From positions 95,028-130,184 of the forward strand of contig FIZI01000001.1 in the NCBI GenBank assembly GCA_900016865.1: a stretch of DNA of 35,157 nucleotides. The letters are read 5' to 3'. The translations under genes were made by a program, and so were the position numbers. How positions within the stretch are numbered: the first letter of the stretch is position 1; each line of letters begins with the position of its first letter. This DNA is from an uncultured Clostridia bacterium (GTDB lineage Bacteria; Bacillota; DTU014). Below the pieces are notes generated by a model, which saw nothing but the letters and a program-made list of their open reading frames with translations, did not search any database and was not told the DNA's origin. This document shows positions 14,456 to 32,825 of this stretch, piece by piece.

Positions 14456-14810
14456 TGGTGGAGGCGGCGAGAATCGAACTCGCGTCCGAGAAGGCAGCCA
14501 TCTGAGCTTCTACGAGCGTAGCGTCAGATTTGCTGATTCACCCTGCCGAACCCCCTGACGCCGGGTTCCTTTAGGGCTATCCCGCTAGATCTCGTTGCTT
14601 ACCCGCGGGATATGGCAAGCAACCAGCCTGATTGGGTGACACCCGGCACTGTCTGCTCAGGCAACAGACAGTCGGATGGCTGCGTTTATATTACGCAGCG
14701 GCCAACGCGTAATCGTCGGCAGTTATTTGGGTCCACCGATTAACGAGTAGGTGGGATCTCGGCTCGCTACTCAGCTGTCCACATCTTCCCGTCGAAACCA
14801 TTGCGCCCCC
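14456..14810 (-). ncRNA. ssrA: tmRNA (10Sa RNA)
   Basis: Rescues stalled ribosomes by acting as tRNA-Ala and then as message for a degradation tag. Seen on the minus strand: 5' end GGGGGCGCAATGGTTTCGAC, 3' T-arm and acceptor GTTCGATTCTCGCCGCCTCC ending CCA, about 355 nt. The tag frame at 14720-14691 reads ADDYALAAA then TAA, just after ATAACT. Most tags end -LAA, while this one has a third Ala. The 3' CCA is encoded. It lies 80 bp after smpB, the gene for its partner protein, and has its own promoter. Confidence 0.96.
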
Positions 14811-27559: not shown

Positions 27560-27588
27560 ATTATCACAGATACCCATCGCGTTGTCAA
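27560..27588 (-). promoter_or_regulatory. Promoter of greA-lysS
   Basis: Minus strand TTGACA, exactly 17 bases, GATAAT. Start of transcription near 27553, so the greA leader is about 185 nt, long for this window. I see no riboswitch that I can name in the leader. Confidence 0.7.
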
Positions 27589-27627: not shown

Positions 27628-28698
27628 CTAACGGCCGGCTTTTCTCCTTATGGACTCGATCTGCTCATCAGTAACGGGTCGTTCAAAGCTACGCAATCCA
27701 GCCACTTTAAAGCCATGCTTGTCCGCCAATGCACAGATACGCCGCACTCGCTCTGCGGAGTATTCACGGCCCAAGCTGAAACTCTCGTATGTGCCCTCAA
27801 GTGCGAGGATCATCGTCTCAGCCATGCAGGCAAAGGCGAGACCTGGAGGGAAGCCAAAGTTGAAGTGGAAATCCACATTGTCACCCGGAACCTTTATCAC
27901 ACCGCCTTCGATCACGAGCACATCTTCTCGCTCGTCAGCCACCTTCTTGGAAACGTCTCTCGGCCGAGCTATGTCGAGGACTACCGCTCCCTTCTTAAGG
28001 TCGCCGGGATTTATCAGAGGCTCCGCTGCAGACGACGCGGTAACTACCAGGTCGGATCGTCTCGTAGCTTCCGACACGTCTGTAGTTATAGATGCCTTAA
28101 GTCCACTCTGATCGCATAACTGCTGCTGAAGAGCCTCGAGTCTCGTGCGGTCTCTAGCCACCAGCGTCAGGTCAGAGACCTTGTCCGCGAGAAGGTGGCT
28201 GCAAGCAGTACCCACCGACCCAGTAGCGCCGATCACTGCAACTGAGCAGGTCTGCATGTCAATATCCATCCGGCGGGCGGCGAGCTCAAGAGCTTGAATA
28301 CCCGCACCTGCCGTATAACTGTTGCCCGTGGTGACACCGACAGATACGTGTCGGCTGACTGTAATCCCTGCATCGCCTACTACAGATGTAAATGCGCCCA
28401 GGCCAATGATCTTCGCGCCTAGCTCCTCAGCCTTCTGCGCAGCCCGGATTATCTTCCGAATCACATAGTCCTGATCGAGCTGCAGCATTTGCCGCGCAGT
28501 CAGCGTGCAGCCCACGAACCACCCTTCTGCGGACGCTCCCGTAGCAGACTTTATCCCGGTTATCTTCGACGCCACCACAGGTGGCATCAACTTGAGGCCG
28601 AACTCAATCACCAATGGCGGGAGATACTTAGCAAACGTGTACTTACGTGCGACATCTGATGCGTCTAGCGGGTGAAATATGAAAGCAAACGTATTCAC
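27628..28698 (-). CDS. Acyl-ACP reductase-like NAD(P)-binding protein (AAR-type)
   Basis: Resembles the cyanobacterial long-chain acyl-[acyl carrier protein] reductase, which makes fatty aldehydes. 356 residues against about 340. Seen: GLGAFTSVVGDAGI (AAR-like GGFSSIV), TTGNSYTAGAGIQA at 123-136 (AAR TTGNTHTA), the Rossmann loop SVAVIGATGSVGTACSHLL at about 152-170, LIEGG-type strand VIEGGVIKVPG, and FACMAETMILALEG with Cys 291 aligning with the AAR active-site Cys in FACFAE. GTG 28698 with AGGAGG 7 nt upstream. The substrate is unproven; such proteins outside cyanobacteria often get the label shikimate dehydrogenase. Third gene of a cassette with a quinate-DH-like protein and an HTH regulator. 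No aldehyde deformylating oxygenase is here, as expected for an anaerobe. Confidence 0.75.
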   Translation of the reverse strand: MNTFAFIFHPLDASDVARKYTFAKYLPPLVIEFGLKLMPPVVASKITGIKSATGASAEGWFVGCTLTARQMLQLDQDYVIRKIIRAAQKAEELGAKIIGLGAFTSVVGDAGITVSRHVSVGVTTGNSYTAGAGIQALELAARRMDIDMQTCSVAVIGATGSVGTACSHLLADKVSDLTLVARDRTRLEALQQQLCDQSGLKASITTDVSEATRRSDLVVTASSAAEPLINPGDLKKGAVVLDIARPRDVSKKVADEREDVLVIEGGVIKVPGDNVDFHFNFGFPPGLAFACMAETMILALEGTYESFSLGREYSAERVRRICALADKHGFKVAGLRSFERPVTDEQIESIRRKAGR

Positions 28699-28758
28699 GA
28701 TCCAACCTCCTGAAGTCTCAAACCCATTGCCAAACAGGAGACACGTCTCTCCGGACTC

Positions 28759-29664
28759 CTAGAACGACAGCACTCTCGGCTTGAAATCTGCCCTATCAAG
28801 TACATCCTCAAGCTGCGAGAAGGTCAACGTCTTTGGGTCAAGGCCCGAGGCAAGCACTATAGCCGCCTCAAGGACGTTGGTTCCAAACGACCTCCCATCA
28901 AACTCCGGGGTCGTGGTTATCAGCATACGCGCACCCCGTCTGCGCAGCTCAAGAACATCATCATGTGTCAGAGTGTTCGATATCACAGTCTTCCCGGCCA
29001 TGTCGTCCGGCATGTGCTTTCTGATGTAGTGCCAGTCACCTGCCACAATGTCCGCCCATTCGAAATAGCGGGCTTTCGTGTTGGATGACGACTGGACATC
29101 TTGGTCCTTGCCGGTGGGATATAGCCAACTGAACGGAAATTTGGTCACCAGCGGCATGAAAGCTAAACCTAGTGCGTTTAGGACCTTCAAGCTGTAGAGC
29201 GGTATCGGAACTCCAAGTGCAAATATGAGGTCCCCATACAACACCTTCTTGGAAATAGACTCGAGTGCCTGGGCAATACCCGGACGGTCGGTGGCGGCGG
29301 GCACAAGCACGTTGCTCGATGCGAAGTCCACAATATTCTGCCTGTTGAGGTCAAGGATCACGCGCCGCTCCCAGGTGTTCTTGAGGTAGGATCCATCAAA
29401 GACAGGAGTCTGCCTGGCTGCAGACACTATCTTAAAGGCATCGCGAATCGGATACCGCCTTCCGGCAGCAAACAGGTAAAGATCGATACCGCCCAACCCG
29501 AATGCATCGACCTTGCCGTCGAGTTCGGAGATCTTGCGCATCATCTTCTGGGTATCCCCGTCGCATCCGATCCTCTCGAACACGAACTCGTGGCCGAGAA
29601 TGGTGGCTGTGACGGTTTTGTCCCTTCTTGATGAGCCCAGGCTAACACTGACGATTCTCTTCAA
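28759..29664 (-). CDS. Conserved protein of the type auto-labelled quinate 5-dehydrogenase
   Basis: 301 residues from TTG 29664 behind GGGGGG. I recall similar Clostridial proteins carrying the automatic name quinate 5-dehydrogenase, but I see no quinate-specific residues and no clear GxGxxG nucleotide loop, so I do not claim that activity. Seen: an N-terminal beta segment VSVSLGSSRRDKTVTATILG, a Gly-rich AFGLGGIDLYLFAAGRRYPI, a hydrophobic stretch DLIFALGVPIPLYSLKVLNALGLAFMPLVTKFPFSWLYP that could sit at the membrane or bind lipid, and a C-terminal GKTVISNTLTHDDVLELRRRG with MLITTTPEFDGRSFGTNVLEA. Between the HTH regulator (15 bp) and the AAR-like reductase (60 bp), so it probably works with both. 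Confidence 0.7.
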   Translation of the reverse strand: MKRIVSVSLGSSRRDKTVTATILGHEFVFERIGCDGDTQKMMRKISELDGKVDAFGLGGIDLYLFAAGRRYPIRDAFKIVSAARQTPVFDGSYLKNTWERRVILDLNRQNIVDFASSNVLVPAATDRPGIAQALESISKKVLYGDLIFALGVPIPLYSLKVLNALGLAFMPLVTKFPFSWLYPTGKDQDVQSSSNTKARYFEWADIVAGDWHYIRKHMPDDMAGKTVISNTLTHDDVLELRRRGARMLITTTPEFDGRSFGTNVLEAAIVLASGLDPKTLTFSQLEDVLDRADFKPRVLSF

Positions 29665-29679
29665 TGGGCGAGCCCCCCT

Positions 29680-30225
29680 TTAGTCTGCAACTAACGACTT
29701 CGCATCGCGCAGTTCCTGAAGAATCGCTCTCAGCCGACCAGTATCAACCTCTCGATCTCCTCGAAGAGGCGACGTACCTAGCTCGATAGCGACCACCTGG
29801 CACCTCAGGATCGACTTCACCAGTCGTATGCGCATGTCGGAGCCAAGAAACACTACTGACCTGAATCCCTGCAGCTTTCGAATCAGCTCCATGACCTCAT
29901 TTATCAATTGCGCTCCCGATCTGCTTTCGACATAATCCCATCGTTCTTTATCGTTCATCAGCAGTACGAAGTCAACACCGAACTCCTCTGCAAGGGTGGC
30001 TATCTCGAACTTGTTCGCAATAGGAAACCCCACGAGAGCTATCCTGCCGCCTCTCCTTACCTCGCCGAGGCTCTCAAGGCGTGATACAAATGTCCTGTCG
30101 ACTCCGATCTTGTCGGCAGCATCCTGCTGGGAGCCTCCCTCCGCACGAATCCTGAGCAAAGCGTCGATAGCATCATCAATGCGGTCTCTGTCTATCAGTT
30201 TATCTCCTATACGAACAAATCCCAC
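29680..30225 (-). CDS. Helix-turn-helix regulator of the reductase cassette
   Basis: 181 residues from GTG 30225 with AGGAGG 7 nt upstream. Seen: an N-terminal region FVRIGDKLIDRDRIDDAIDAL, an Xre-like HTH at about 30-55 (GSQQDAADKIGVDRTFVSRL), then an alpha/beta domain beginning GGRIALVGFPIANKFEI, VDFVLLMNDKERWDYVES, SVVFLGSDMRIRLVKSIL, which may be a ligand-sensing or nucleotide-binding fold I cannot name. First gene of the cassette, 15 bp before the quinate-DH-like gene, behind its own extended -10 promoter with a repeated TGTkCACA motif. Likely an autoregulator of the cassette (inference). Confidence 0.75.
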   Translation of the reverse strand: MGFVRIGDKLIDRDRIDDAIDALLRIRAEGGSQQDAADKIGVDRTFVSRLESLGEVRRGGRIALVGFPIANKFEIATLAEEFGVDFVLLMNDKERWDYVESRSGAQLINEVMELIRKLQGFRSVVFLGSDMRIRLVKSILRCQVVAIELGTSPLRGDREVDTGRLRAILQELRDAKSLVAD

Positions 30226-30262
30226 GCCACCACCTCCTGACAAAAAGTCCCGTGCTGGCTGG

Positions 30263-30282
30263 TGTTCACACTTTTGTGCACA
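30263..30282. promoter_or_regulatory. Operator-like repeat at the cassette promoter
   Basis: TGTTCACA (30263-30270) and TGTGCACA (30275-30282), 12 bases apart, next to the predicted start of transcription of the HTH gene. Position and spacing suit binding by the HTH protein as autorepressor. I find no further copy inside the cassette. Confidence 0.4.
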
Positions 30283-30287
30283 TACCG

Positions 30288-30296
30288 AGTATAGCA
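30288..30296 (-). promoter_or_regulatory. Extended -10 promoter of the HTH/quinate-DH-like/AAR-like cassette
   Basis: Minus strand TGCTATACT, a good -10 with TGn extension; weak -35 (TGGTTT at 17 bases). Start of transcription near 30281, leader about 56 nt. Confidence 0.5.
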
Positions 30297-30338
30297 CAAC
30301 TGCTTATGCGAAACCATCACTTATATATCTACACCCGC

Positions 30339-32133: not shown

Positions 32134-32424
32134 CTACCGGCCCAGGGTTTCGCATAGCACCCGCCACAGTATCCCTGCGCCGATCCCTATGAACATCAAA
32201 CCTGCTCCTATTTGGATGTAGCGGACTGGAACTACAGAGGAGATAAACTGCCCGGCGATAACGGCCACCAGGGTCAAAACAGTCAAAGCCAGCGAAGCAC
32301 CGATGAATATGGGCAACGGTGCTCGATATTGGCTCACTAAACTGAAGACCACTAGCTGCGTCTTATCGCCGAGCTCAGCCACTATGAGAAGGCCGAAAGC
32401 CAGTAGAACGAGGTGCCAATCCAC
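32134..32424 (-). CDS. Half-size GDT1/UPF0016 cation transporter
   Basis: Membrane protein of the TMEM165/GDT1 family, linked to Mn2+ or Ca2+ transport. About 96 residues with one UPF0016 repeat: the signature AELGDKTQL in the first helix, then two or three further TM segments (FIGASLALTVLTLVAVIAG, YIQIGAGLMFIGIGAGILW). Many relatives have two repeats (about 190 residues). This single copy must pair with itself or a second gene elsewhere. GTG 32424 is preferred because AGGAG lies about 9 nt before it and abuts the upstream ATG 32433. 18 bp before coaX. Confidence 0.88.
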   Translation of the reverse strand: MDWHLVLLAFGLLIVAELGDKTQLVVFSLVSQYRAPLPIFIGASLALTVLTLVAVIAGQFISSVVPVRYIQIGAGLMFIGIGAGILWRVLCETLGR

Positions 32425-32534
32425 AAGCCCCATCTCCTAACGACTCTCGTGCGCTGCTGCTCTCCCACTCACATATGTATTTGAAAATGCGCTACAATAG
32501 TCATGGGACGGGGCTATAGATTGACGATAAGGGT

Positions 32535-32699
32535 TCACTCGTCTAGAGGTTCAAACATATCCTTCTCGACTCCACACTCGGGACATACCCAGTCATCGGG
32601 CAAATCCTCAAATGCGGTGCCAGGCTCGATGCCGTTTTCAGGATCACCTACCTCCGGATCGTATACATACCCGCACACTGTACACTCCCACTTCGACAT
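32535..32699 (-). CDS. Rubredoxin
   Basis: One-iron electron carrier, 54 residues from ATG 32699 with AGGAGG 7 nt upstream. Seen: the two Fe(Cys)4 knuckles [20 protein letters not shown] and [14 protein letters not shown] with the conserved Tyr and Phe/Trp packing residues. It probably donates electrons to superoxide reductase and rubrerythrin (8-9 kb) or to neighbouring redox proteins. It follows the ParB-ferredoxin fusion on the same strand. Confidence 0.96.
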
Positions 32700-32825
32700 A
32701 GGCCTACCTCCTCTTGCCTCCTCTTTTCGCATAACCAAATAGGCAAGTAAATGATATGCCAATCCAGACTCTTTTACAAGCCGATCTTCAAGCCCGGCAG
32801 TGACACAGACAGCTCCCCTGACAAC

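Follow-up and report, generated by a model that had tools for sequence, protein, structure and literature searches.

A three-gene cassette with an acyl-ACP-reductase-like protein in an uncultured Clostridia bacterium as a candidate reducing half of an amine-forming pathway

We analyzed a stretch of 35,157 nucleotides (the window) from an uncultured Clostridia bacterium (assembly GCA_900016865.1, contig FIZI01000001.1, positions 95,028 to 130,184 of the forward strand), which carries a cassette of three genes encoding a helix-turn-helix (HTH) regulator, a middle protein hereafter termed MID, and a protein resembling the acyl-ACP reductase (AAR) of cyanobacteria. The genes were checked from the DNA and from the translations of its open reading frames, and all coordinates are window positions on the minus strand:

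27560–27588, minus strand: sigma-70-like promoter TTGACA-17-GATAAT (11/12 in a sigma-70 scan), driving greA, downstream of the cassette
27628–28698, minus strand: predicted AAR-like thioester reductase, 356 aa (sequence and profile matches, conserved residues; residue roles from PMC7089970)
28759–29664, minus strand: MID, 301 aa, with an AAR-fold model, without catalytic Cys and without GxxGxxG
29680–30225, minus strand: XRE-like HTH regulator, 181 aa, with a small C-terminal alpha/beta domain; GTG start from homologue N-termini and ribosome-binding site
30263–30282, minus strand: putative operator TGTGCACAAAAGTGTGAACA (that is, TGTGCACA-AAAG-TGTGAACA), composed of a pair of TGTGnACA boxes set 12 bp apart; it overlaps the predicted start of transcription
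30288–30296, minus strand: extended -10 element TG-C-TATACT of the cassette promoter, from sequence, kept in the sister genome

The three open reading frames, separated by 60 and 15 bp, are all present as described in an earlier reading made from the letters alone (the sequence-only reading), and so are the extended -10 element and the operator-like repeat that it had assigned to the cassette, both of which lie upstream of the HTH gene. The HTH gene itself was also correctly recognized; its start, however, had been placed near 30297 and is moved here to 30225, a GTG codon with which the N-termini of homologues (VRIGDK) coincide and which AGGAGGTG directly precedes. With this start, promoter and operator are non-coding.

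The operator-like repeat begins five bases past the extended -10 element, and the sister genome (G040, locus L033) has the arrangement TGnTATACT-N5-TGTGCACA-N4-TGTGtACA with identical spacing. More broadly, of 107 loci, 16 have TGTG-N8-TGTG ahead of the HTH gene, compared to 0–6 for other spacings. The operator is unique in the host genome (one exact match; the hit listed second, with one mismatch, is this site read on the opposite strand), and a regulon search of this genome with the operator matched only the cassette itself. The sigma-70 scan did not detect the cassette promoter, which has no good -35, and the strong greA promoter just downstream makes the cassette a unit of its own. The HTH protein, for which a fold search returned nothing significant, would bind this single dedicated operator over the transcription start and repress its own operon, repression being the direction of regulation that we infer.

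The AAR-like reductase and its middle partner

The last gene of the cassette encodes a stand-alone protein of 356 aa with no fused aminotransferase domain, and the landmarks for which it had been called AAR-like are exact: TTGNSYTA at residues 123–130, GATGSVG at residues 157–163 and FACMAE with Cys291. The assignment is borne out by kept active-site residues and by sequence matches over nearly the whole length, as a sequence search of the PDB returned PigE (4ppm, E 2.6e-39) and AAR (6jzq, E 1.7e-31 over residues 12–334). According to work on AAR (PMC7089970), the acyl group is borne by C294, the dinucleotide is bound at GATGDIG, and three arginines (R189, R193 and R314) secure the NADPH phosphate; C291 aligns with C294, and R182, R186 and R311 match these arginines, at the positions of the 2'-phosphate. 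Among 79 relatives, T123, G125 and E294 are invariant (79/79 each), C291 and R182 are found in 75/79 and 74/79, position 186 is K or R in 74/79 and position 311 R or K in 69/79, so that the equivalents of the AAR catalytic and NADPH-contact residues (C291, GATGSVG, R182, R186, R311) are kept in 62–79 of the 79. The nearest known relatives are the reductase domains of PigE and TamH, followed by cyanobacterial AAR. Both NCBIfam scores fall below the curated cut-offs (PigE, 238 bits against 850; AAR TIGR04058, 140 bits against 449.7), and by sequence the protein is a relative, and no equivalog, of TIGR04058. Judged by these matches, it is very probably an acyl-thioester reductase, and we consider it highly likely that an acyl thioester is reduced to an aldehyde.

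Automatic annotation would instead make the proteins of the cassette relatives of shikimate/quinate dehydrogenases with housekeeping roles. This assignment draws on a PF01488 match to the AAR-like protein (residues 138–255, 57 bits), which, however, covers the NAD-binding domain only, while the full-length matches are to AAR and PigE. MID had likewise been described in the sequence-only reading as quinate-dehydrogenase-like, a description that does not hold: none of 56 members (0/56) matches PF01488 or any Pfam family convincingly, and the fold is closest to AAR. The dehydrogenase assignment was rejected for MID, and as an explanation of the cassette it is largely refuted and very improbable. 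A literature search for 'quinate 5-dehydrogenase' and COG5322 found nothing on the cassette.

A sequence search with MID against solved structures gave no match. Its AlphaFold2 model (pLDDT 93), in contrast, has AAR as its best PDB match in a fold search (E 3.3e-7, probability 1.00), albeit with a TM-score of only 0.47, which indicates that the topology is common to both proteins and that the domain angles differ. Seven of the top eight matches are AAR chains, the remaining one being a sugar-binding protein, and the top 20 consist mostly of AAR chains together with the AAR-related carmabin TAD. Going by this model, MID has the three-domain fold of the AAR type.

At the sequence level, hhalign of MID against AAR profiles found no match, and a semi-global profile alignment scored 49.3 compared to 37.4 ± 3.8 for shuffles (z 3.1, with 1/400 shuffles as high). 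The motifs fall into register (GLGG/GLGA, DGSGLKNT/TTGNSYTV, P-DLxGKxIxTNTxTxxDV/PEDLKPGAVVCDVARPRDV and MEAxLVALxG/MAETMILALEG). Unrelated control pairs, however, reached z 0.7–2.3, the highest being dusB-AAR at z 2.3. Since proof from sequence alone thus failed, the kinship rests on the fold search, and we regard homology of MID and AAR as probable rather than proven.

MID has no conserved Cys, carries DRFG in place of GxxGxxG (D126 and R127 in 135/135 sequences), and therefore cannot use the AAR mechanism. Nevertheless, about 40 residues are invariant across 56 sequences, including D126-R127, D145, R258, GTN at 261–263 and E266, which argues for a precise function of its own. We propose that MID acts as a non-catalytic or differently catalytic partner, which would bind or guide the carrier protein, substrate or product, or would run a further reaction. 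MID proteins, about 300 aa long, form a highly conserved family without a Pfam or NCBIfam entry.

Distribution of the trio and its genomic neighbourhood

Gene neighbourhoods were surveyed across the phylum. The phylum-level counts given here and below are approximate, being based on the matches listed with manually transcribed genome and locus handles, and contig breaks make some absences false. MID was matched in 186/250 genomes sampled across the phylum (45–66% identity) and the HTH family in 154. Stand-alone AAR, counted at E ≤ about 1e-40, was present in 130/251 genomes, 129 of which also have MID; the single AAR genome without MID (G019) is 78% complete. Carriers include Thermoanaerobacter, Tepidanaerobacter, Caloramator, Alkaliphilus, Halonatronum and Syntrophomonas, and outside the phylum Thermus and Meiothermus. 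The trio recurs in other genomes, an outcome on which the sequence-only reading had made itself depend. The trio is ancient, being found across most of the anaerobic Firmicutes lineages sampled, and AAR-type chemistry, otherwise described in cyanobacterial alkane formation and in a small number of pigment clusters, appears here as a conserved core unit in about half of the sampled families of the phylum.

The prevailing gene order, shared by most of the 60 loci inspected, is coaX-dusB-HTH-MID-AAR-greA-lysS, and outside this housekeeping block the genes that recur nearby offered no clue to a pathway. MID is the core of the locus. Where the gene following it could be judged, it was an intact AAR in about 75 loci, an AAR relative lacking both Cys and GxxGxxG in about 10, and nothing in about 26. 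Such degenerate relatives occupy the AAR slot at L063:2888-3805, L155:7932-8990, L162:7903-8898, L071:9440-10567 and others, retained as if the fold, not the chemistry, were needed. At L127:7001-8899, MID is duplicated in tandem and the second copy sits in the usual AAR slot. MID was not found in searches of plasmids.

Further genes adjoin the trio in subsets of loci. Between dusB and the HTH gene, 12 loci encode a conserved protein of about 320 aa without a Pfam match, with motifs AHTVEHAIIRAL and SG.CGNPLT (L035:2771-3736, also L036, L043, L060, L094, L095, L110, L111, L115, L118, L144 and L153). Directly upstream of dusB-HTH-MID, three genes resembling 2-hydroxyacyl-CoA dehydratase/activase are found at L234:7861-10899, L235:7350-10398 and L236:8688-11726, with similar sets at L141 and L083. 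Elsewhere in the window lie a tmRNA gene (14456-14810, minus strand; tag ADDYALAAA) and, judged by sequence, at 32134-32762 (minus strand), a rubredoxin gene (32535-32762) adjoining that of a 99 aa membrane protein which resembles the GDT1/UPF0016 family.

In Deinococcota, MID was found in 80/81 genomes and AAR in 81/81 (30–38% identity), so that the AAR-type unit occurs with MID in nearly every sampled genome. In all Deinococcota AAR proteins scanned (11/11), AAR lies C-terminal to a PlsY acyltransferase domain (PF02660), and it keeps ACLAE or an equivalent Cys motif. MID precedes efp-accB-accC in Thermus, its stop codon overlapping the efp start. In strains of Thermus and Meiothermus the major phospholipid is reported to be an N-glyceroyl alkylamine, and a related lipid occurs in Deinococcus radiodurans (PMC3035268, PMC3398001, PMC9636437); this literature names no enzyme for the alkylamine. 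A reductase fused to a member of a phospholipid-synthesis acyltransferase family is what an alkylamine-lipid pathway would need. The aminotransferases found on Deinococcus plasmids are of the ornithine/LysJ kind.

This distribution also bears on the idea that the three proteins form a sensor, in which MID and/or AAR would bind acyl-ACP or acyl-CoA and report lipid supply to the HTH protein, catalysis being secondary. HTH and MID are kept where AAR is gone or Cys-less, MID is rich in invariant polar residues and has no Cys, the small alpha/beta domain of the HTH protein could bind a ligand, the single operator lies at the promoter of the HTH gene itself, and MID stands ahead of efp-accB-accC in Thermus. 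On the other hand, one operator in the genome implies a regulon consisting of the cassette alone, which would be odd for a general lipid sensor; moreover, some loci have MID and AAR without the HTH gene, and no regulator adjoins MID in the Thermus and Meiothermus loci inspected. Overall, we consider a sensor role improbable.

Association with aminotransferases and the proposed amine route

The strongest functional clue is the co-occurrence of AAR with a class III aminotransferase. PigE is needed for thioester reduction and transamination, as shown in cell lysate (PMC8341465), and TamH, like PigE, combines a reductase of the AAR type with a class III aminotransferase (PMC9594044, PMC8341465). 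The host genome encodes such an aminotransferase, unlinked to the cassette (G000:C13:24899-26278); in NCBIfam it scores highest against PigE (491 bits compared to 389 for putrescine aminotransferase). Its orthologues, delimited at E ≤ 1e-140 and at least 51% identity, were present in 80/129 genomes with stand-alone AAR versus 3/122 without (p 4e-27). The association persists with one genome per family (104 families; median p 3e-11, worst 5e-8). Counting a second stand-alone aminotransferase group and fusions as well, a partner is present in 134/158 genomes that carry AAR or a fusion, and a stand-alone aminotransferase from these groups in 2 of the 93 genomes that carry neither.

Fusions of about 900 aa (PF00202 plus AAR) were found in 25/58 MID genomes without free AAR versus 8/128 with free AAR (p 6e-9); in L206 and L099 they take the place of AAR within the trio, and in L201 they adjoin the HTH gene. 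In L231 the aminotransferase gene precedes AAR by 37 bp, and in L232-L236 it lies 4–10 kb from the trio. Reductase and aminotransferase thus occur in the phylum in three arrangements, namely fused, adjacent and, as in the host, unlinked. On plasmids, all AAR matches (15/15) lie within or directly beside a class III aminotransferase.

Taken together, reduction followed by transamination is well supported, and we regard it as likely that the aldehyde is converted to an amine. The sequence-only reading had proposed an aldehyde- or lipid-related pathway, or lipid sensing, outside the known cyanobacterial system. By sequence, an AAR-type thioester reductase is supported; what that reading missed is the PigE-type aminotransferase in the genome, its co-occurrence with AAR and the fusions, which make amines a likelier product than hydrocarbons.

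With identical AAR chemistry, the fatty aldehydes might alternatively go to fatty alcohols, ether/plasmalogen-type lipids or another non-amine product. Twenty-four AAR genomes have no amine-forming partner, and the HgdAB/activase-like three-gene set, of a superfamily that includes bacterial ether-lipid reductases, immediately precedes dusB-HTH-MID(-AAR) in several clades. This set is, however, clade-limited and present also in loci without AAR, and the strongest genome-wide association is that with the aminotransferase, so that we hold a non-amine fate to be unlikely. Similarly unlikely, in our estimate, is a short or polar acyl thioester as substrate, giving a small amine or amino compound and no lipid. 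Such a substrate would agree with putrescine aminotransferase as second-best match of the partner aminotransferase and with the C8 compound on which PigE works (PMC8341465), but AAR and TamH belong to fatty acyl pathways (PMC7089970, PMC9594044), and in Deinococcota, whose lipids include long-chain alkylamine types, AAR forms a fusion with PlsY, a member of a phospholipid acyltransferase family.

We therefore favour, at somewhat better than even chances, a model in which the cassette supplies the reducing half of a pathway to amines, with a long-chain alkylamine for membrane lipids as its most likely product. An acyl group from acyl-ACP or acyl-CoA would load onto Cys291 to give an acyl-enzyme, which NAD(P)H would reduce to the free aldehyde; the unlinked PigE/TamH-type aminotransferase would turn the aldehyde into a primary amine, and the long-chain alkylamine would then enter a membrane lipid. 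For the long-chain lipid product taken by itself, we put the chances at slightly under even.

Several points weigh against this model. To our knowledge, alkylamine lipids have not been reported in Firmicutes. MID occurs without any detected AAR in 32–33 genomes, and AAR has decayed to Cys-less forms at the same position in about 10 loci, from which it follows that MID must also act without the reductase. Furthermore, 24/129 AAR genomes have neither an aminotransferase orthologue nor the second group nor a fusion. A literature search found no reported assay for a firmicute or Deinococcus-Thermus enzyme of these families. Purified PigE gave no reduction in vitro (PMC8341465), and the TamH reductase domain was inactive on C12-CoA in a published test; the inactivity of the pure proteins on the thioesters offered may hint at the need for a partner or for the right carrier. 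Finally, as the PigE substrate is a C8 compound (PMC8341465), the chain may be short.

More tentatively, MID, AAR and the PigE-type aminotransferase might constitute an unrecognized ancient alkylamine membrane-lipid pathway common to anaerobic Bacillota and Deinococcota, with MID as an obligatory component, which would provide the enzymes still lacking for glyceroyl-alkylamine phospholipid synthesis in Thermus and Deinococcus; we consider this extended proposal possible, with the balance tilting against it. If true, PlsY-AAR and MID would be concrete genes for the alkylamine branch of Deinococcus-Thermus phospholipids. Likewise, if fatty amines are made, the cassette predicts a membrane-lipid class in anaerobes not known from reports.

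Comparison with known systems

Cyanobacterial AAR (TIGR04058, 6jzq) and the AAR-like protein align over the whole length, Cys294 corresponding to C291, and share the dinucleotide loop and the three arginines; unlike the cyanobacterial enzyme, the host cassette is accompanied by MID and an aminotransferase. In the cyanobacterial AAR-ADO system the second enzyme is O2-dependent, and ADO is not expected in an anaerobic host, in which no search for it was made. The carmabin synthetase TAD (9e4x family) is sequence kin of the AAR-like protein (E 2e-8) and ranks near the top in the fold search with MID, but belongs to a natural-product assembly line.

The PlsY-AAR proteins of Deinococcota resemble the AAR-like protein in their AAR domain (about 36%, up to 38% identical), keep ACLAE and come with MID in the same genomes. 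They differ in the N-terminal PlsY membrane domain, in TNGG replacing TTGN and in a GANGVVAFG loop, and their MID and AAR genes are not adjacent.

PigE (prodigiosin) and TamH (tambjamine) share with the cassette the similarity of the reductase domain, the catalytic Cys, GxxGxxG and an aminotransferase partner of the same type, and fusions in the TamH order, with the aminotransferase first, occur in this phylum in place of AAR in the trio. In contrast to these two systems, which reside in secondary-metabolite clusters, the reductase described here is usually a separate gene with MID as partner and a regulator of its own, set in a housekeeping neighbourhood.

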